Assembly: GCA_938008015.1 (NCBI GenBank)
Contig: CALLMA010000012.1
Coordinates: 1-47,250, forward strand
Direction: 5' to 3'
DNA: 47,250 nt
From: an uncultured Celeribacter sp.
GTDB taxonomy: Bacteria; Pseudomonadota; Alphaproteobacteria; Rhodobacterales; Rhodobacteraceae
The position numbers were made by a program, and so were the translations under genes. Under the pieces are notes generated by a model. That model was not told where the DNA came from. It ran no database searches and worked only from the letters and a program-made list of their open reading frames with translations. Shown one piece after another: positions 6,021 through 34,374 of the stretch; within the stretch, counting starts at the first letter, position 1; each line of letters begins with the position of its first letter.

Positions 6021-6057
6021 GAAAATTCACTTGAAAATCTATCGCCTATGAATTTTC
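6021..6057 (-). terminator. AT-rich inverted repeat around the kinase stop codon
   Basis: GAAAATTCA (6021-6029) and TGAATTTTC (6049-6057) are a perfect 9-bp inverted repeat flanking the TAG of the histidine kinase gene (6039-6041). It could act as a weak terminator or 3' stability element. The stem is AT-rich and there is no clean U-tract, so confidence is low. Confidence 0.25.
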
Positions 6058-8159
6058 TGGACGTAATTTACCGTGCTAAAAAGTTGCAATGGCGTAAACG
6101 GTTTCTCTAACACAAATAGGTGCTCAATATGCGTCCAAGCTTCTGGCAGCCTTGCTTTCGACGCTGTTGTGATAATGATTGGAACTTGAATATGCTGCGC
6201 AAGAACATGTTCAATGAATTCTTCTGATAAATGCCCTCTGCCCAAGTCATAATCACTGACAATGACATCATAAGCCTGCGAAGCATCGAAAGCGGTGATG
6301 GCGTTATCAACCGATGAGATGGCGGTGACTGGGAACTCTTTGTCGCGCATCAACTTGGCTGTAGAGGCTTGTATTTCAGTATTATTTTCGAGCAATAACA
6401 CAGTGGGCTTGCGCAATTTTGCGACGATAAGTTTATCTTCACGCTGCTTGATGTCTGCTATAGCAGGCTCTGCCATAATAGGCACGATCATGGTGAAATG
6501 AGTGCCGCCCATTTCAGGCAGATCAAATGACAGCGGGATTTTGAGCTCCTTCGCGAGGGCGAAGCTGATATTAAGCCCAAGCCCATAGCCGCTATGATCC
6601 GTTTTATGCTTCAGGGTGCTATGCAGCCCTGGCCCATTATCTGCGACACATATCCGGCATTCTTTGCCCAGCAGCTCGTATGAAATATGCACGGGGCTAT
6701 GATTGGCATGTTCAATCGCGTTGACCGTAAGATTGCTCAAAATTCTATAAAGCGCATCTGCGTCTGAGGATAAAATGATATCGGAAGGTGGAAAATTAAT
6801 GTCGAGTTTCGTTGCGTTGATCTCCGCGCGCGTTTGGAAATCACGCTGTATACGATGGAAAAGTTTTTGCAGCGATGAGGATGAAACCTGCGTTACGAAA
6901 TTGCCAGCTTCTAATTTAGATAAGTCCAATATCGAATGAAATAAACGAATGCTTTCTCGTATTAACTCATTAAATTGTTTTAAAGTTTTTTGATTTTCAG
7001 GGCTGAGTTTCTCTTTGTCGATTGTGCCCAAAAGCAAACCCATTGCATGGATCGGCTGGCGAAGATCATGGCTGGCAGCGGCCAAAAGCATTGATTTAGA
7101 CTTATTTGCGATCTCTGCATTTTGTTGCGCTTGCGCGGCTTCTTTATTCAAAATCAGCAGTTTCGCTTGCCTCTCAGAGATGGCTTCAAGGAGGTTTGCG
7201 AAGGTTTTTTCGAGCTGAGAAATTTCATTGCGTTCCAATTCAGTATCTTCTGCGATGACTTCCTGAGAATTCATTTTATGAGTGAGGTTTTGGATTTTTG
7301 CGATGATTTCCCTGTCTAAAATATGATAAATGAATGCTGCGATACAGATGAAAACGAGAAAGCTGCCGAGAACAAATATAAGATTTCTTGTTAGCATGTT
7401 TTGTATTCTTTGCCCGCTTTGCTGGCTTTCAATATTTGAACTTGAAGACAAGAAACGCGTCGCATCCAACAAGCGCGACGAAAGCGTTGTATGTTGGTGG
7501 ACGCTCCCTTGCAGGGTGTTATTTGTAGCAACTATTTTTTTGCGAATCTCTAACAGATTTGAGAGGAGGTTTTTTTGAGTATTGGATATATAAAGCGCCT
7601 CGATATCATTGCGAATTTGATCGGCGCTTGTGAAGCGCGACATACTATAAATACGATCAATAATTTTGCGCTGTTGAAGCTCGGCGAGGGGCGCGCTTTG
7701 TTCATCTAACACTTCTAAAAGAGTTTGATCATAAAGGCTTAAAAGCAACAGCCTTTCATAGCTTTGATCCAAAATAAGGGTTAGATTTGCGAGAAGGGCG
7801 GTGAGCGTTTGAGAGACTTCAAGCTGCTCATCCCTTGCATTCGCAAAATCCGCGAGCCTATTCTTGGTGCGCTCAATGGCATTAATTTGATCATTGGCTT
7901 GAATTCTAATCGTGTCGACTTCAATATTTGAACGCGCCGCCAAGACGAGGCCAATATGGCTGGTTAATTCTGAAATTTGCGAATTTAATTGTGTAACCGT
8001 CAAAACATGAGGCATTTCATGTTCAATGAGCTCATTAAACTCATCTCGAAATGATTGAAGGCCAAAAATGGCAACATAACCATTCATCACCGCACCGATG
8101 GACATGCACGCAAGCGTGGAAAAAAATATCATACCAATGCTGAAAGAACGCCCAAACAT
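6039..8159 (-). CDS. Hybrid sensor histidine kinase with periplasmic helical sensor and C-terminal receiver
   Basis: This 706-residue inner-membrane kinase has TM1 at about 6-32; a long Leu/Gln-rich, probably helical periplasmic region at 35-255; TM2 at 258-280; a HAMP-like linker; a HisKA domain with phospho-acceptor His364 (ASHDLRQPIHAMG); an HATPase domain (N-box Asn480, DNGPG 507-511, GYGLGL 524-529); and a receiver domain from about 585 with Asp636 (VSDYDLG) and Lys686. It has no HPt domain. The ATG lies 3 bp after the stop of an AapJ-like binding-protein gene, so the two are made from one transcript. The likely model is a periplasmic binding protein presenting ligand state to the helical sensor, as TorT does for TorS. 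A candidate response regulator lies at 15461-16090. Ligand and phosphorelay route are inferred. Confidence 0.9.
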   Translation of the reverse strand: MFGRSFSIGMIFFSTLACMSIGAVMNGYVAIFGLQSFRDEFNELIEHEMPHVLTVTQLNSQISELTSHIGLVLAARSNIEVDTIRIQANDQINAIERTKNRLADFANARDEQLEVSQTLTALLANLTLILDQSYERLLLLSLYDQTLLEVLDEQSAPLAELQQRKIIDRIYSMSRFTSADQIRNDIEALYISNTQKNLLSNLLEIRKKIVATNNTLQGSVHQHTTLSSRLLDATRFLSSSSNIESQQSGQRIQNMLTRNLIFVLGSFLVFICIAAFIYHILDREIIAKIQNLTHKMNSQEVIAEDTELERNEISQLEKTFANLLEAISERQAKLLILNKEAAQAQQNAEIANKSKSMLLAAASHDLRQPIHAMGLLLGTIDKEKLSPENQKTLKQFNELIRESIRLFHSILDLSKLEAGNFVTQVSSSSLQKLFHRIQRDFQTRAEINATKLDINFPPSDIILSSDADALYRILSNLTVNAIEHANHSPVHISYELLGKECRICVADNGPGLHSTLKHKTDHSGYGLGLNISFALAKELKIPLSFDLPEMGGTHFTMIVPIMAEPAIADIKQREDKLIVAKLRKPTVLLLENNTEIQASTAKLMRDKEFPVTAISSVDNAITAFDASQAYDVIVSDYDLGRGHLSEEFIEHVLAQHIQVPIIITTASKARLPEAWTHIEHLFVLEKPFTPLQLFSTVNYVQKIHRR

Positions 8160-23445: not shown

Positions 23446-26256
23446 TTAATAAGAAAACATTGATTTTCTATTACTTTGATGCCTTGAAATTATTTTATTC
23501 GTCAAATTGCTCTTCGATATAACCGGGCGAGCAAATTCAGCAATGAAATCTTCGTGGAAAAGCTCTGGAAAAAGCTCCAATAATTCGTCTTTGGCTTCTT
23601 GTCCCACGGCTTCAAGAGCTTGCGGGCCCGTAAATAGGCTTTCCGTCAAGGCGCCATTGGAATACACAATCTGATGATCGTCGAATAAGAAGTGGTAATA
23701 TTTGACCTCGCTCACATCATAAGCAATTGATACTCCAGATAAAGGCAGAAGTTTTTTAGCAGCGATTAGAACCTCATAAGATCCACACATGCGATTCACG
23801 ATTTTGGATCGTAGCAAGATACGGTGCTGAGGAGACACAATCAAATCTTCGCTTGGGAAGCCTTTGCCCAATGCGTTTTGTTTGATGCGGATAGGGCGAA
23901 GGCTAGATTTTGCTTCAAGTTGAGAATTATTAAGGCTTTTGCTCTTGATCCACTTGATCGGTTGATAGCCATTATCAAGTGTGAGTACCTTCTCTCCAAT
24001 ACAAAGATCTTGAACTTTAACGTCCCCATTCTCCGTCTGAATCAATGTGTCTTCACCAAAACAAGCTAATTCGAAATTAATAGTTTCGAAATTCTCGAAG
24101 CTAATATTACCAATAGTACCCGTTTCATCGCCACCGGTAATGCGAACCGATCCAAATTCCAAAGTGCCCGCATCCCTTTGGGCCAATAAGGTAGCGAGGG
24201 TTGGTTCGCCGGATCCACCGAAGGCAATTACAGTGCCTGATGCTGTCGTATATGTTCCGACTACATTCGCGGTATCAAGATCACTGCCAATATCTGATGT
24301 GTGAATGGCTTCTGTGAGTGTAATTGCATCGATGCTGCTCGGGGCCTCTCCAGCAACAAAGCTTTCAACTGAAGAGACGGTATCTACGCCAACACCGGCT
24401 TTAAAAACAGTTCCATCACCATTATTGTCAACACTCACAACGACGGATGGCCCAGCTTGCGTTAAAGACGCACCAAGATTAATACGGCCATCTAAAACAC
24501 CATCAGCTGCATCTGCGGCTTCGAGATTGGAGGCATTATTAAAAATAAATGCGCTATTTGATCTGGAAGAGCCAAAAAGAATTGAGGGTGGCTCTGACCC
24601 ATCTCCTTCAAGGACGTCAAATGTTGGCGTATTAAAGTAATTGCCGGCGCCAGAGCTAAATGCGAAAGACTCGGGGGCGGCAACAATGTCAGCACGTGAT
24701 GGAGAATTTTCAGATAAATCAATAATCCCATCGCCATCGGCATCGATTGCACTTAAATCACTCGCAGAAATGATGAATGAACCATCCTGGGATGATCCTA
24801 CAAAATACTCAATATCGCCATCGCCATCAAGATCGCCTAAGCTCTCAAATGTAAGAGCTCTTGTATAGGTACTTGTCGTAAATTTGAACGAATTGGGGGT
24901 ATTGACCGGATCAAGGTTGGCTATATCGATGATGCCACTTGGCTCGGTAAAAGCCGCAAGGTCGCTCGATGCAACGATTGTCATGGTTGCGACATAATAG
25001 TAGTCATCATACGCAGAAATGGCGAAATCATCTATGCCATCGCCGTCCAAATCCCCAATGTTGAGATTCGTACCATCAACCCTTGGGCCACTTGTATCTG
25101 AAACAACTATGCTGTTGCTTGATGTGGCGACGAGGCCTGGAATTTCTTGAACATCAATGAAGCCATCTGCGGTAGTTGTGCCGCCACTGGTATCAAAATG
25201 GACCAAATCTTGGCTTGAAATGATGAACGTATTGGCACGATCGCCAAAAGAAAGCTCTGACTTCCCATCACCGTCCACATCTTCCAAAAAGCTAAAATTA
25301 AGAATATCACCATTAACAAAGCTATATGAGTTTGATGAACCATTTAAGTCCAACAGATCTTGAAACGCAATTTCATTATCTGTGCCAGAGCTCGCATCTA
25401 GGCCCGCCAAGTCGTCTGAGGCGACAATCGTTAAAAAGCTTTCATTTACTCTTGAGCCTGTGATTAGGACGCCAAAATCATCTTCGCCTGAGCCAAGAGC
25501 ATCCACGCCACCTTCAATAGAAATGTCGATAGAAGGCGCGGAGGCAAACAGAGGAAAGCCCCCTGAAATGATGTAGGAATTGGGCCCGCTGCTTATATCA
25601 TCAAATTCGATAGCCCCATCATTTGATGAACTCTGATCATCAAGAAAATCTAAATCAGCCGTAGAAATAATTGTTATGGAGGGAGTGGTATAATAAAAGC
25701 GGTCCCCACTGGACACGATAGCAAATTCAACAGCCCCATCACCATCCAGATCACCTAAAGCGTTTACCTCTTCGCCTGCGTATGCATAATATGCATTTGG
25801 TCCGAATATTTGGAATGAGTGTGGGTCTGATGAAGCGTTGATTTGCGCAACGACGTTTTCAATATCAACATTCCCATCAATCGTACCATCTGCGGCATCT
25901 GCGGCCAGCAAATCACGTGAGGAAACAACGACCGTTAGACCATTGGCGTAATAATAATTGGATGTGTGAAAAGCGTCACTGATCACAAAGTCATCGAGGC
26001 CATCGCCATCGATATCCCCAATGATCGATACCTGAGTAGCACCGCCATCTGTGACAGCGAAGACAAGCGGCGTTATTTCTGCCGAGACAACATATGTATC
26101 ATTGCCGTCTCCGCCTCTTATCGTATCCGATCCTCTCGACGACGTGACCGTATCATCGCCCGCAAGAGCATCTACGATATCGTCATCATCGGTACCAACA
26201 ATTGCGTCATCATTTGGCGTGCTCAAGGCAAAACTCCGTATTTGAAACTTTTGCAA
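23446..26256 (-). CDS. Large RTX / FG-GAP repeat protein with C-terminal Hint domain
   Basis: This 936-residue protein begins with Asp/Gly-rich RTX-like calcium repeats (VGTDDDDIVDALAGDDTV, DTIRGGDGNDTY; 18-55), then at least five FG-GAP-type calcium loops (GDIDGDGLDDFVIS, GDLDGDGAVEFAI, EDVDGDGKSELSF, GDLDGDGIDDFAIS, GDLDGDGDIEYFV) as in integrin-like propellers, and ends with a Hint_2 domain starting at Cys732 (LACFGEDTLIQTENG) with VSPQHRILL as the His block. There is no Sec signal, which fits type I secretion. Hint domains in hedgehogs and inteins self-cleave at that Cys; whether this one does is unknown. The start is TTG 26256 with no good ribosome site, so the N-terminus is uncertain. 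No T1SS genes are in the window. Confidence 0.85.
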   Translation of the reverse strand: MQKFQIRSFALSTPNDDAIVGTDDDDIVDALAGDDTVTSSRGSDTIRGGDGNDTYVVSAEITPLVFAVTDGGATQVSIIGDIDGDGLDDFVISDAFHTSNYYYANGLTVVVSSRDLLAADAADGTIDGNVDIENVVAQINASSDPHSFQIFGPNAYYAYAGEEVNALGDLDGDGAVEFAIVSSGDRFYYTTPSITIISTADLDFLDDQSSSNDGAIEFDDISSGPNSYIISGGFPLFASAPSIDISIEGGVDALGSGEDDFGVLITGSRVNESFLTIVASDDLAGLDASSGTDNEIAFQDLLDLNGSSNSYSFVNGDILNFSFLEDVDGDGKSELSFGDRANTFIISSQDLVHFDTSGGTTTADGFIDVQEIPGLVATSSNSIVVSDTSGPRVDGTNLNIGDLDGDGIDDFAISAYDDYYYVATMTIVASSDLAAFTEPSGIIDIANLDPVNTPNSFKFTTSTYTRALTFESLGDLDGDGDIEYFVGSSQDGSFIISASDLSAIDADGDGIIDLSENSPSRADIVAAPESFAFSSGAGNYFNTPTFDVLEGDGSEPPSILFGSSRSNSAFIFNNASNLEAADAADGVLDGRINLGASLTQAGPSVVVSVDNNGDGTVFKAGVGVDTVSSVESFVAGEAPSSIDAITLTEAIHTSDIGSDLDTANVVGTYTTASGTVIAFGGSGEPTLATLLAQRDAGTLEFGSVRITGGDETGTIGNISFENFETINFELACFGEDTLIQTENGDVKVQDLCIGEKVLTLDNGYQPIKWIKSKSLNNSQLEAKSSLRPIRIKQNALGKGFPSEDLIVSPQHRILLRSKIVNRMCGSYEVLIAAKKLLPLSGVSIAYDVSEVKYYHFLFDDHQIVYSNGALTESLFTGPQALEAVGQEAKDELLELFPELFHEDFIAEFARPVISKSNLTNKIISRHQSNRKSMFSY

Positions 26257-29250: not shown

Positions 29251-30465
29251 CTATCCTTTAACTGAACCAGCGGTCAAACCTTTGGTCATAAATCTCTCGA
29301 GCCCAAGGAACAGCAGCATGATCGGAACTGTGGCGATCACGGCGCCTGCCATTAAATGTTGGCGCGGTATTTCAGATGAATTTAGTGAAGCAATGCCTCG
29401 GGTCAGCGTGAATTTTGAGGGATCATCAAGCAACATAAATGCCAATAAAAACTCATTCCACGCGATCATAAATACATAAAGTGACACCGAAGCCATTGCC
29501 GGCAAAGACAGTGGCAATGTGATCTTCCAAATCACCGCCAATCGGCTAAGGCCATCCATAAGGCCCGCCTCTTCAATTTCGGCCGGAAGCCCGCGGAAAT
29601 AGCCTTGCAGCATATATAAAGCCACAGGAATAGTCGTCACAGGATAAATCATAACAATCCCGAACAATGTATTACGAAGCCCTGTCATCGAGAAAGCAAT
29701 ATAAATTGGCAGCGCCAGCACAATCATTGGCACCATGTAGATCAACAAAATTGAACGTGAAAACGCCGCTTGGCCTTTAAACCGTAAGCGCGCCACAGCA
29801 TAAGCGCCAGGGATAGAAAAAGCCAAAGTGATCAGCACCGTCAATACGGATACTAAAAACGACGTCCATAAATAGCCGCCAAATCCAAAGTCCGAGAACA
29901 GCTCAGAATAGCTACGAAAAAGCCCCCAACCTTTTGAAAAGTCAATTGAAAAATCAAGAGGGTTTTGAAGGAGCGCTTGCTGAGATTTCAACGAGGTCAT
30001 CACCATCACATAAAATGGGATCAAAACAATGGCTGTAAAAAAGATATAACCAAAGCCCGTTAAAAAACGGATGACCCCATCCTCAAACTCATGCCGCGTT
30101 AAGGCGCCTTTGTGAAATTCTAAGAACATAGAGGCCACAGAAATCGCAAAACCTCCACCCAATGCAACCGCGCCAAAGATGCGCGCAAGGCCAGAGGTGG
30201 TTTCGCCCAATACGATCGGTCCAAATCCGATCAGCGTGAGAGCCACAACGGCTGTGCTTACTGCAATTTGAATCGCGATGGAGCGTCCCAAAGCCATCAT
30301 CGCAGCGCCACTAAGCGCCCCCCAAATCAGTGACAGTAATATTTGTGGGCGAAAGGCTTCACCCGTTGCAAATGACATGGAAACAGCAACTGTTGTTGCA
30401 ATCACAACCATCCAAATCGCACCAATCAAAGGCGCTGCTATAAATCCAAAGCGTAAATGCCTCAT
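29251..30465 (-). CDS. Carbohydrate ABC transporter permease (MalG/AglG type) with extra N-terminal helices
   Basis: This 404-residue permease is longer than typical MalG-type permeases (about 280-300). Residues 1-115 form roughly four extra TM helices (for example VVIATTVAVSMSF and LILSLIWGALSG-like segments) that precede the usual first helix. The core keeps PFYVMVMTSLKS, AYAVARLRFKG, and the EAA loop EIEEAGLMDGLSRLAVIWKITLPLS, cited as EEAGLMDGLSRL. GGAGGGG lies ten bases upstream of ATG 30465, inside a 27-codon small ORF whose stop overlaps this start by 4 bp. It pairs with the permease at 30542-31792. Confidence 0.9.
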   Translation of the reverse strand: MRHLRFGFIAAPLIGAIWMVVIATTVAVSMSFATGEAFRPQILLSLIWGALSGAAMMALGRSIAIQIAVSTAVVALTLIGFGPIVLGETTSGLARIFGAVALGGGFAISVASMFLEFHKGALTRHEFEDGVIRFLTGFGYIFFTAIVLIPFYVMVMTSLKSQQALLQNPLDFSIDFSKGWGLFRSYSELFSDFGFGGYLWTSFLVSVLTVLITLAFSIPGAYAVARLRFKGQAAFSRSILLIYMVPMIVLALPIYIAFSMTGLRNTLFGIVMIYPVTTIPVALYMLQGYFRGLPAEIEEAGLMDGLSRLAVIWKITLPLSLPAMASVSLYVFMIAWNEFLLAFMLLDDPSKFTLTRGIASLNSSEIPRQHLMAGAVIATVPIMLLFLGLERFMTKGLTAGSVKG

Positions 30466-30545
30466 GATCTCGCCCCTCCGCTCATCTTATCTAATAAATT
30501 TATGCCGGAGGCACGGCGCAAGGCTTGTTTGATATGCATGCTCAT
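30462..30545 (-). CDS. Translationally coupled 27-residue small ORF between the two sugar permeases
   Basis: The start ATG (30545-30543) overlaps the TGA of the upstream permease gene, and its own TGA (30464-30462) overlaps the ATG of the downstream permease; both are ATGA junctions. A strong AGGAGG ends seven bases before its ATG, inside the last codons of the upstream gene. The peptide begins MSMHIKQALRRA and ends DKMSGGARS: basic, with a short LL core, not obviously a TM helix. It exactly fills the 76-bp gap that would otherwise be non-coding. It may be a small transporter subunit or a pure coupling device that carries ribosomes to the next gene. No family is recognised. Confidence 0.7.
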   Translation of the reverse strand: MSMHIKQALRRASGINLLDKMSGGARS

Positions 30546-31792
30546 ACCCCCTCCTCCTGATTGACATATTTGAAGAAAAATACCGAAAACAGCAGCAAGC
30601 AGCAAAATATGACCACGGCCACCGCAGCGCCTGCTCCGATATTTGAAACCGCAAAAGCTTGCTCATATACATTCACTGTTAATGTCCGCGTCCCCGCATT
30701 GCCGCCTGTCAGCAAAAAGATGTCGTCGAATTTGTTGAACGTCCAAATGAAGCGCAATAAAAATAAGACGGATAAAATTCCTAAAAGTTGGGGCAATGAT
30801 AAAAACCAAAACTTTTGAAACGGCGATGCCCCATCCATATCTGCGGCCTCATACATATCTGTATCAATTGATTGCATACGCGCTAAAATGAACAAAAACG
30901 AGAGTGGGAAGTACCGCCAAATCTCAAACACCGTGACCATAATCAACGCCAAAGGCCTGTCGCCAAAGAAGTTAATCGCCTCTGAGCTCACACCCATTTG
31001 GAGCAAAAGCGCATTGGCTGAGCCTGAAAACGGATCAAAAAGCGTAACCCATGTAAATGCCACCGCAATCACAGGGGCCACATATGGAAATAAATAAAGC
31101 CCGCGCAAAATGCCTTGCCCGCGGAACTCTTTGTTCAATAGAAGTGCCGCAAAGAGCCCAAACACCAAAGCGCCAACCGTGCCAACGACTGTATAAAACA
31201 TCGTTACGCCCAACACGCCCCAAAACTCATCCCCATCGAAAATTCGTGCAAAATTTTCAAATGTGAACTCCATATTGGTCAAGATATTATTGGCAGTTCC
31301 TACGGCCTTTGGCTCAGTGTCATCTTCGAGCACATCTTCTAATGCATCCAGATCGCCATCCAAAACGGCGGGTATAAGCAAAGTGGTGCGCGATCCAGGC
31401 GCCAGATCCCCCATGATGCAAGACAAAGCGGCACCATTGAGTGAACATTGTGTTGGAAGTTCACCTAATGTCACGCCACTTGGTATCACATCTGTAAAGC
31501 TGACCTCGCCGATGGTCTGATCTTGGCTGCGGTTTTGAATACGGTAGCGGATGGCTTGATCCCCATCGCCTTTGTTACGCAAATCCTCTCGCACCACAGG
31601 CGCGACAGGGCGCAAATCAGCCAATCCGACTGGTTTAAACGAAATCCAAAAGATTGCCAAAAGCGGCAAGATGACAACTAAAGAGACAACCGTTATTGTC
31701 GGCAACAACAGCCCCCAAGCCAATCGTTCTTCACGTTTGGCCAGCGCACCGCGCTTGGTCGGCGGACCTAAATTCGACCCTAAATCAGACAT
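30542..31792 (-). CDS. Carbohydrate ABC transporter permease (MalF/AglF type) with inserted DUF11-like domain
   Basis: This 416-residue permease starts at ATG 31792, with GGAGG six bases upstream; a longer frame to 31828 lacks one. After the first TM helix (about 28-52) lies an insert of about 110 residues facing the periplasm. It reads like a DUF11 beta-sandwich: IRYRIQNRSQDQTIGEVSFTD, cited as YRIQNRS, then FTDVIPSGVTLG, QCSLNGAALSCIMGDLAPGSR (cited as SCIMGDLAPGSR) and LLIPAVL, followed by an acidic linker. The permease core then resumes (FENFARIF, YLFPYVAPVIAVAFTW, EAADMDGASPFQKFW). E. coli MalF also has a large periplasmic loop that contacts its binding protein, so the insert may dock the binding protein at 31899. 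Confidence 0.88.
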   Translation of the reverse strand: MSDLGSNLGPPTKRGALAKREERLAWGLLLPTITVVSLVVILPLLAIFWISFKPVGLADLRPVAPVVREDLRNKGDGDQAIRYRIQNRSQDQTIGEVSFTDVIPSGVTLGELPTQCSLNGAALSCIMGDLAPGSRTTLLIPAVLDGDLDALEDVLEDDTEPKAVGTANNILTNMEFTFENFARIFDGDEFWGVLGVTMFYTVVGTVGALVFGLFAALLLNKEFRGQGILRGLYLFPYVAPVIAVAFTWVTLFDPFSGSANALLLQMGVSSEAINFFGDRPLALIMVTVFEIWRYFPLSFLFILARMQSIDTDMYEAADMDGASPFQKFWFLSLPQLLGILSVLFLLRFIWTFNKFDDIFLLTGGNAGTRTLTVNVYEQAFAVSNIGAGAAVAVVIFCCLLLFSVFFFKYVNQEEGV

Positions 31793-31864
31793 AAATAGCC
31801 TCCATCTCGAAGCAATTTTTAAAATCATTTGTTAAAATGTATGAGAGTTCCCAAAGCGGGAAGA

Positions 31865-31890
31865 GATTGGCCCCATAAATGAGGCCAATC
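31865..31890 (-). promoter_or_regulatory. Intercistronic stem-loop between binding-protein and permease genes
   Basis: GATTGGCC (31865-31872) and GGCCAATC (31883-31890) form a perfect 8-bp stem with a 10-nt loop, 9 bp after the stop of the solute-binding protein and 73 bp before the permease start. There is no U-run. It is positioned like the hairpins after aapJ and osmF in this window. Confidence 0.6.
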
Positions 31891-31898
31891 ACATTAGA

Positions 31899-33251
31899 TT
31901 AGTTTACTTTCGCCAAAGCATCATTCATCGCAGCCACAGCTTCTGCTCCGCCGATGTCACCATCTGTGAACTGGCGTACAATGCGGTTGATCGCCTGACT
32001 GTTGATCATTTTAGACGCAAGTGAAAGCTGCCCTTCGCTCACACCCCAACGCTGTGCCACATCAAGGCCGCCTACGATTTCATCAATCATATCTTGCGCA
32101 TACAACTCACCTAAAGGTGCCTTGCGATCAACACCAACCGGCAAAGTGGCCCATAGATCTTTGAACTTATTTGGTTCAGCTTCTGTGCCTGCGCGCACTG
32201 GGAATTTCCCTTCAGGTGCGATCGACAATGTTTTGCCATAGCCTTCGTCGAGCGAATATTTCACGAAATCAATCGCCGCATCAGTATCTGCGTCTGAAGT
32301 AATTCCGAAATAGCGCACATCGCCCCATGCCGCACCATCAGGATTTGATGGGCCCGCAAAGTTGGTTACAATGCCTGTCGCTGCTGCTAAATCACGCGAC
32401 GTTGGATCCTCATTGATTGTGGGTGGCGCACTATCGCGAAGGCCGGCTAATTCATCCAAGATAAACGGAGACCAAATGATCATCGCGGCTTGGCCTGAAA
32501 AATAGAGCTCGCGCGATTGCTTCCAATAGAGCTCACCTGGAGGAGAGGCATCAACAATACCCTTATAAAACTCAAGAACTTCGATTGTTTTCGCTTCATC
32601 TAATGGCGCAAAACCTTCGCCATCAACCGGCGTTACGCCATTGGCCAAAAACACATGTTCCAAAACTTGGCTCATGAAGTTTTCATCCACTTTTGTCGGT
32701 GCGACAAAGCCGTACATCTCTGGCGGATTGTGAAGCTTTTCAATCGCCGCCAAAACATCCGCATAAGTATTTGGCGCAGACAGCCCATGCGCATCAAATA
32801 GATCTTTGCGGTAAACGACCATTTGCGTCCACCCATCAACAGGAACAGAAGCAATGCCCCCATCAAAGGCAGCCATTTTCAAAGCCCCCGGCGCAAAGGT
32901 CTCTTTGCCTAATCCTTCAAGAACCTCACCGGCCGCTTCGCTATCTAACAGACCCGCCTCGGCCCAAGGCAAAGCATATTGCAACGTGTGGTAAATAACA
33001 TCAGGCAAATCACCCGCAGCAAAGGCCGCTGTAGAACGCGTGCCAAGATCATTTTCAGTCACAGGAATGACTTCAACTTCCGTCCCAGTTTGCTCTTGAA
33101 ACGCAGCTGCCATTTCTTGTTGCTTGGCTAAACGCTCAGGCTGCTCTTCGGTTGTCCAGAACCGAATGGAATCGGCAGATGCTCCCGTTGCTGCCAGTGC
33201 TAAAGCCATCGCGGCCCCTGATAACAGGTGTTTTGTGAGTGTATGTTTCAT
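31899..33251 (-). CDS. Carbohydrate ABC transporter solute-binding protein (AglE-like, family 1)
   Basis: This 450-residue exported protein starts at ATG 33251 with GGGGAGG seven bases upstream; a longer frame to 33335 has no ribosome site. The signal peptide (MKHTLTKHLLSGAAMALALA) ends near ASA. The mature part is a family-1 binding protein: IRFWTTEEQPERLAKQQEMA, FAAGDLPDVIYH, AEAGLL, MVVYRKDLFDAHGL, and KGIVDASPPGELYWKQSRE with a W-rich ligand region. It delivers solute to the two permeases. The hydrolase in the same operon suggests a glucosylglycerate-type ligand. Only 19 bp separate it from the LacI-type gene, so it shares that promoter. Confidence 0.9.
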   Translation of the reverse strand: MKHTLTKHLLSGAAMALALAATGASADSIRFWTTEEQPERLAKQQEMAAAFQEQTGTEVEVIPVTENDLGTRSTAAFAAGDLPDVIYHTLQYALPWAEAGLLDSEAAGEVLEGLGKETFAPGALKMAAFDGGIASVPVDGWTQMVVYRKDLFDAHGLSAPNTYADVLAAIEKLHNPPEMYGFVAPTKVDENFMSQVLEHVFLANGVTPVDGEGFAPLDEAKTIEVLEFYKGIVDASPPGELYWKQSRELYFSGQAAMIIWSPFILDELAGLRDSAPPTINEDPTSRDLAAATGIVTNFAGPSNPDGAAWGDVRYFGITSDADTDAAIDFVKYSLDEGYGKTLSIAPEGKFPVRAGTEAEPNKFKDLWATLPVGVDRKAPLGELYAQDMIDEIVGGLDVAQRWGVSEGQLSLASKMINSQAINRIVRQFTDGDIGGAEAVAAMNDALAKVN

Positions 33252-33270
33252 TATAGGTCCTCCCCTAATT

Positions 33271-34374
33271 TTAATTTGAAACGGTTGTTTTTTGGCACAT
33301 GTGCCCTGCAGGTGACACGGGCCCATGACTGCCACGATTCAAAAACGTCGCAGGGCCCAATTCACGCAAATTTTCAGGCGCCGCGCCGCGTATGCGCGCA
33401 ATCAATAATTCCGTTAACCGCGCGCCTGCGGTTTGATTATCCACGGCAAAAGTGCTCAGTGGTGGTGTCATCATCGCCCCTTCGGGTATGCCATCATATG
33501 AGATCACCGAAATATCTCGCCCAATCTGCAATCCGCGCTCAGAGGCCCATTGATACACACCCAAAGCCGCTTGATCGACGGCACAAATAAACGCGGTTGG
33601 GGGTTGTGCTGCCGCCATCAATTGACCTGTATTCTCATATCCAGAACCTTGATCCACAGAGGCCTTTCCAACCAATGAGGCCTCATACGACAGCCCATTC
33701 ATGGTCAAGCCCGACACATAGCCTTGGTAGCGGATTTTTGAATATGTAAACCCGTCTCCACCAGGCAAAAAAGCAATACGCTGGTGGCCCAGATTTGTTA
33801 ATTGTGTCACAGCTTGTTCAAAAGCCGTTTTCATATCAATGTCATACCATGCACAACCAGCTTGATCTTCCGTTCGGCCATATAGAACAAACGGCACATC
33901 TGCCTCGCGCAAACTGTCAATGCGCGCATCTTTCAAATAGGTGCGCGGCAAGATAAAGCCATCGGCCTTTCGCTCATCAACCAAGCGCGCCAATGTATCG
34001 CGCGTGTGTTCTTCGGAATTGGCCATTGCGAGCGTCATGGTCCACCCCTCTTGACTGGCGGCATTTGAGATGCCTGCCAAAAAATCCGCCAAAAAGGGAC
34101 GGTGCCCGTCATGCTCAAAATTTTGCAAAACCAAACCGACAGAACGCACGCGGCCCGTTTTAATTGCTTGCGCATGGCTAAGCGGCCGATATCCCATCTT
34201 TTCGGCAGCTTGTTTCACACGCAATTTTGTGGACGCTGAAATGTCAGCGTAATTGTTTAAAGCTCGGCTCACAGTCCCTTTGGCCAAACCCAATTCAGAG
34301 GATAAATCTGAAATTGTGACCCGTGGTGCGAATTGGCTTGTCGTGTGACTTGTCTCCCTCATAAGTGTAATCAT
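33271..34374 (-). CDS. LacI-family transcriptional regulator of the glycoside operon
   Basis: This regulator of about 367 residues has an N-terminal LacI HTH (VTISDLSSELGLAKGTVSRALNNYADIS, cited as ISDLSSELGLAKGTVSRAL, about 19-45) and hinge (KMGYRPLSHAQAIKTGR), then a periplasmic-binding-like sugar domain (SVGLVLQNF, DGFILPRTYL, AFLPGGDGFTYSKIRYQGY). ATG 34374 or 34362 is the likely start; neither has a good ribosome site, and a frame from TTG 34398 would begin inside the operator palindrome. It is first in the operon, directly upstream of the binding-protein gene. A perfect palindrome overlaps its 5' end, indicating autoregulation and control of all downstream genes. Confidence 0.9.
   Translation of the reverse strand: MITLMRETSHTTSQFAPRVTISDLSSELGLAKGTVSRALNNYADISASTKLRVKQAAEKMGYRPLSHAQAIKTGRVRSVGLVLQNFEHDGHRPFLADFLAGISNAASQEGWTMTLAMANSEEHTRDTLARLVDERKADGFILPRTYLKDARIDSLREADVPFVLYGRTEDQAGCAWYDIDMKTAFEQAVTQLTNLGHQRIAFLPGGDGFTYSKIRYQGYVSGLTMNGLSYEASLVGKASVDQGSGYENTGQLMAAAQPPTAFICAVDQAALGVYQWASERGLQIGRDISVISYDGIPEGAMMTPPLSTFAVDNQTAGARLTELLIARIRGAAPENLRELGPATFLNRGSHGPVSPAGHMCQKTTVSN

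Follow-up and report, generated by a model that had tools for sequence, protein, structure and literature searches.

The window, as we call the whole 47,250-nt stretch analysed here (from an assembly of 137 contigs and 2.0 Mb), carried on its minus strand an operon encoding, in order, a LacI-type regulator, a sugar-binding protein (E; 31899..33335), a permease of 428 aa (F; 30542..31828), a second permease of 404 aa (G; 29251..30465), an MGH1-like glycoside hydrolase and an ATPase that passed the UgpC model. Both permeases matched PF00528, the ABC permease family, and F was related in sequence to SugA and MalF, two permeases of solved structure. Named relatives were mostly Rhodobacteraceae, with the closest F found in Pseudaestuariivita (83-84% identity). 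Across 30542-33335, Pseudaestuariivita-type genomes were closer to the window than were genomes given as the same genus, both in F (83-84% vs 70-73%) and in E (81-84% vs 74-76%); horizontal transfer, a misplaced genus or a stray contig might each account for this. Elsewhere in the window, a 706-aa ORF (6039-8159) was without a match at E 1e-60 when eight other genomes, including four of the same genus, were searched, and a 936-aa ORF (23446-26256) contained a Hint_2 domain together with a match to an RTX calcium-binding repeat.

The stop of F and the start of G were separated by a gap of 76 nt, which was spanned by a small open reading frame of 27 codons plus stop on the minus strand, which begins with the ATG at 30545, closes with a TGA whose last base is 30462 (30462..30545) and encodes the peptide MSMHIKQALRRASGINLLDKMSGGARS. 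Its start shared an ATGA with the stop of F (30542..30545, minus strand), and its TGA lay inside the ATGA that opens G (30462..30465, minus strand), so that the frame was joined to both permease genes by 4-nt overlaps, as a sequence-only reading of this DNA had described. The AGGAGG that the same reading placed seven bases before the ATG, within the last codons of F, was also confirmed (30553..30558, minus strand); a second AGGAGG overlapped the first, with a spacer of 4 nt to the ATG. A ribosome-site-like GGAGG was located 9 nt before the ATG of G (30475..30479, minus strand). The frame was open upstream as far as a TTG at 30605, inside F, and the ATG is the likelier start of the two because it has a ribosome site. 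Hereafter, a frame that is open in this way from the stop of F to the start of G is referred to as a relay. Both junctions of the window's relay showed the stop/start overlap of 4 or 1 nt by which an ATGA/TGATG coupled pair is recognised, and termination-reinitiation at such gene overlaps was reportedly described by Huber et al. in 2019.

F/G junctions were gathered from named genomes (80 loci) and from further genomes, for a total of 218 loci. Removal of seven loci below the F threshold (the paralogues L002-L008), six loci without G (L011, L038, L043, L074, L105 and L152) and 24 identical junctions left 181 distinct junctions. The window's own genome had seven loci paralogous to this one. F and G were adjacent or overlapping in 126 of these (direct junctions), 107 of which had an exact 4-nt overlap, and the remaining 55 contained inserted DNA. 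The limit for a direct junction was 9 nt in this count and 5 nt in an earlier one; by the 5-nt limit, L144, L162 and L171 were inserts, each with an open frame and a gap of 1 modulo 3, and they stand outside the 53 inserts counted below. Two of the 55 inserts were set aside as unreadable, L134 for its masked bases and L237 for 43% identity and a G match beginning at residue 116; taken at face value, both violate the frame rule that follows. L076 was read again by hand and its relay ended on the ATGA opening the N-terminus of G. Permease G of L076 showed an apparent frameshift between its 50th codon and the stretch that matches residue 83, which could be either a sequencing error or a sign of a broken gene.

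All 53 readable inserts held an open frame from the stop of F to the start of G, in 52 as a single relay and in L117 as two relays in series. The inserts were of 28 different lengths, from 28 to 409 nt, and the gap was 1 modulo 3 in 52 of the 53, L117 being the exception; single relays spanned 11 to 138 codons. Relays started at NTGA in 51 cases and at TAATG in one (L027), with the two-relay L117 making up the remainder. The overlap between relay stop and G start was 4 nt in 41 of the 53, 1 nt in three and 10-13 nt in eight, the stop in these eight lying 6-9 nt past the simple ATGA overlap. In L117, the 53rd, the GTGA of F led into 5 codons whose stop fell inside an ATGA, and this in turn opened a frame of 15 codons whose end lay 13 nt beyond the first base of the G ATG; the simple relay form fits neither of its two relays. 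A ribosome site of at least 5 matching bases preceded the relay start in 50 of the 53 inserts and preceded G in 21. Homologous operons lacking the frame, which the sequence-only reading took as a mark of a chance ORF, do exist, but all of them have F and G adjacent or overlapping; every readable insert had the frame.

For the window insert alone, the probability of such a layout by chance was not especially small, at roughly 8% (~1/3 for the frame multiplied by 0.23 for its being open, by shuffling). What exceeds chance is its recurrence in all 53 readable inserted junctions, where the expectation from the composition of each insert was 7.4 relays and the maximum in 100,000 simulations was 19. 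The rule was followed by 17 of 17 readable inserts from loci collected once the pattern had been noticed. We placed 179 junctions on a FastTree tree of F and G, on which we counted at least 23 changes of the direct/insert state and at least 36 of insert length. When inserts of different lengths were paired along disjoint paths, 20 of 21 pairs differed by a multiple of 3 (binomial p 4e-9), the single exception including L117. Since the frame was kept across repeated independent changes on the tree, common descent does not explain the rule. A chance ORF, for which the figure for the window insert alone could be cited, was rejected at the family level on these results, and we regard it as extremely improbable.

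As an internal control, we evaluated the gaps between E and F in the same operons. The 147 non-adjacent E/F gaps (median 71 nt) were distributed 56/56/35 over the three remainders and included 11 relays, whereas relays were present in 43 of the 50 F/G inserts counted alongside them, duplicates included. In five 400-kb stretches from other genomes, with genes called by a simple caller of our own making, a relay was found in 23 of 140 gaps after an NTGA stop compared to 23 of 280 sham frames; the same stretches had relays in 9 of 148 gaps after CTGA and in 23 of 278 after TAA or TAG. The genome-wide excess is small, and the F/G junction is therefore exceptional, although relays may exist at other junctions. 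A possible alternative is that translation of the insert is maintained as a protection of the mRNA against Rho-dependent polarity or nucleases, in which case reinitiation at G by handed-over ribosomes would be unneeded. Keeping the gap open as a reading frame would serve this purpose too, but protection leaves unexplained that the frame ends on the start of G in 52 of 52 single relays (overlap 1, 4 or 10-13 nt). Even gaps of 28 nt follow the rule, and the E/F gaps in these operons have not been maintained as open frames, making this alternative unlikely.

Conservation was confined to the frame and did not extend to the peptide. The check for purifying selection on the small frame that had been proposed in the sequence-only reading found none: in nine hand-picked pairs of relatives of equal length, some with a common member, relay differences were distributed 51/65/57 by codon position with a pN/pS of 1.14, compared to 21/8/131 and 0.06 for the final 100 codons of F across these nine pairs, indicating that selection acts on the frame and not on the peptide. 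An overlooked small transporter subunit had also been suggested, and either this or another functional microprotein would be consistent with the conserved position of the frame wherever an insert exists, and with a partial likeness among some peptides whose inserts share a repeat motif. Such a protein, however, would have no room in 126 of the 181 junctions, would range from 11 to 138 codons and would have to tolerate the pN/pS of 1.14, and the relay peptide had no match in Pfam or in plasmid records; we consider a protein product very improbable. An N-terminal extension of G was ruled out, because a gap of 1 modulo 3 puts the relay and G in different frames.

Many inserts had a GC-rich stem and, after it and directly before the start of G, a motif like CCCCGGGATATTT..CCAGAAGAAGG, which can also supply the ribosome site of G. 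The window's copy was recognisable by alignment only, as a weak match of 11.7 bits at 30479..30506 (minus strand), with other sites in the window scoring up to 17.2. A motif like CCCCGGGATATTTTTGGCCAGAAGAAG had strong intergenic matches in several contexts (in the 400-kb stretch of G351, L209-L228, and in the stretch of G287, L279-L298). This motif looks like a dispersed repeat, and we found no paper on a repeat like CCCCGGGATATTTTTGGCCAGAAGAAG in the open-licence literature.

A mobile element resembling the mycobacterial interspersed repetitive units (MIRU) could have brought its own ORF to the junction, and hence the relay. This would agree with the location of the inserts at the stop/start overlap, with NTGA on both sides in most, and with the shared motif being read in one frame in many of them. 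Close matches to the motif elsewhere in some genomes, however, were found in every intergenic context and were mostly not relays, and by a strict test only 1 of 22 matches between same-strand genes elsewhere was a relay, in a control that included weak matches and is not clean for them. Matches numbered 74 compared to 50 in sequence controls, and weak matches are therefore largely chance. The frame rule also held for inserts in which no motif was recognisable, such as L028, L068, L075 and L080, suggesting that the rule is a property of the junction. A relay-bearing mobile element was thus not supported by the matches elsewhere, and we regard it as quite unlikely.

No Rfam match at gathering score was found in 10 of the 131 loci, and a known structured RNA was rejected on this basis. 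Occlusion of the ribosome site of G by the insert was not a general effect, with a mean predicted accessibility of 0.394 compared to 0.412 when the upstream part was shuffled (p 0.26, 52 inserts); the site was predicted to be more open in inserts than in direct junctions (0.394 vs 0.250). In the window, the G site had a predicted accessibility of 0.17, lower than in 19 of 20 shuffles (mean of 0.35), and its whole predicted fold was not unusual (z -0.24 to -1.11). Structure prediction across the 52 inserts gave no general support for a role of translation in merely opening a hairpin over the G site.

The tail of F was EEGL or EEGV in all 53 readable inserts, and a tail of the same kind closed F in 118 of the 126 direct junctions; the two groups also had similar heads of G. 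As these ends are alike with or without an insert, the site of insertion is the overlap itself. The first NTGA of an inserted junction, which in the window is the ATGA at the stop of F, is best read as a relic of the old start of G. In direct relatives, the ribosome site of G itself occupied the same codons of F, with at least 5 matching bases in 112 of 126. The near-ideal ribosome site of the relay would then be explained by its origin as that of the old G start, shared with the direct relatives.

Taken together, it is likely that the small frame is not a protein gene, but an amino-acid-neutral translational relay that keeps the translation of G coupled to that of F after insertion. A translational relay was among the possibilities put forward in the sequence-only reading, and it is supported by the finding that, across independent inserts, only the frame has been conserved. 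In the ancestral state, F and G would have overlapped by ATGA, and ribosomes ending F would have restarted at G. In many lineages, DNA that often carried an intergenic repeat motif would have entered this overlap and shifted the start of G downstream, leaving in place the old ATGA and the Shine-Dalgarno site within the last codons of F. Ribosomes ending F would continue to restart at the old ATGA, but would now read the insert as an open frame, terminate at the stop overlapping the new start of G, and restart there. Selection would maintain the frame, in its length and its lack of stops, and would be indifferent to its amino acids. In Huber et al. 2023 (PMC10666635), a distance of ~20 nt nearly abolished coupling in the six gene pairs tested, and the 76-nt gap in the window would then uncouple G unless ribosomes were carried across it. 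The weaker ribosome site at G than at the relay would be expected if ribosomes arrive by hand-over. We infer that termination-reinitiation is the mechanism and that the benefit is matched output of F and G; tuning of permease stoichiometry by the relay, as proposed earlier, would be a plausible consequence.

The 53 readable cases amount to a repeated experiment by evolution, in which 28 insert lengths were tried at one permease junction and the frame was kept while the amino acids drifted, and this pattern points to natural selection for coupling at this gene pair. We lean towards the wider view that relay ORFs form a class in which nothing but the frame is conserved, re-created repeatedly from unrelated sequence, even as two in series, and that inserts at coupled junctions that matter are tolerated only if a stop-free frame ends on the next start. 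If true, such junctions would provide a natural record of gene pairs that need translation by handed-over ribosomes. A kept frame with a neutral peptide gives a sequence test for finding other coupled pairs. The relays are also a warning that small ORFs positionally conserved within operons need not encode working proteins.

Within the open-licence literature, we found no description of such relays in Rhodobacteraceae or of the insert motif. The mechanism by which neighbouring genes are coupled, whether reinitiation or RNA unfolding, is 'not firmly established' according to a 2025 review (PMC12548453). Termination-reinitiation at ATGA/TGATG overlaps (Huber et al. 2023, PMC10666635) shares with the F/G relay the same overlap and the same hand-over, which the relay would use twice in a row; the overlap between relay and G was 4 or 1 nt, as in such pairs, in 44 of the 53 inserts. 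Unlike an ordinary ATGA/TGATG pair, the F/G relay is a non-conserved frame that bridges two real genes, and the main text of PMC10666635 makes no mention of a small or short ORF, small gene, minigene, relay or insertion. The closest known case is that of MIRU, which are described as inserting at start codons and carrying an internal short ORF coupled to the next gene at -4, with expression little disturbed (Brown and Wade 2025, PMC12548453). Compared by description only, MIRU and the relay have in common the insertion of DNA at a start and an ORF coupled at -4, a spacing that corresponds to the 4-nt overlap with which the relay ends on G in 41 of the 53 inserts. MIRU are a single repeat family carrying an ORF, whereas the F/G inserts vary widely in length and sequence and the rule is tied to the junction instead of to one element; as they do not form one ORF-carrying family, we did not class the F/G relay as a member of MIRU. 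An upstream short ORF by which a coupled gene is supplied with a ribosome, as outlined in the same review (PMC12548453), resembles the F/G relay in that its role is to bring ribosomes and not to make a peptide. The F/G relay differs from it in being fed from an upstream gene, inside an operon.
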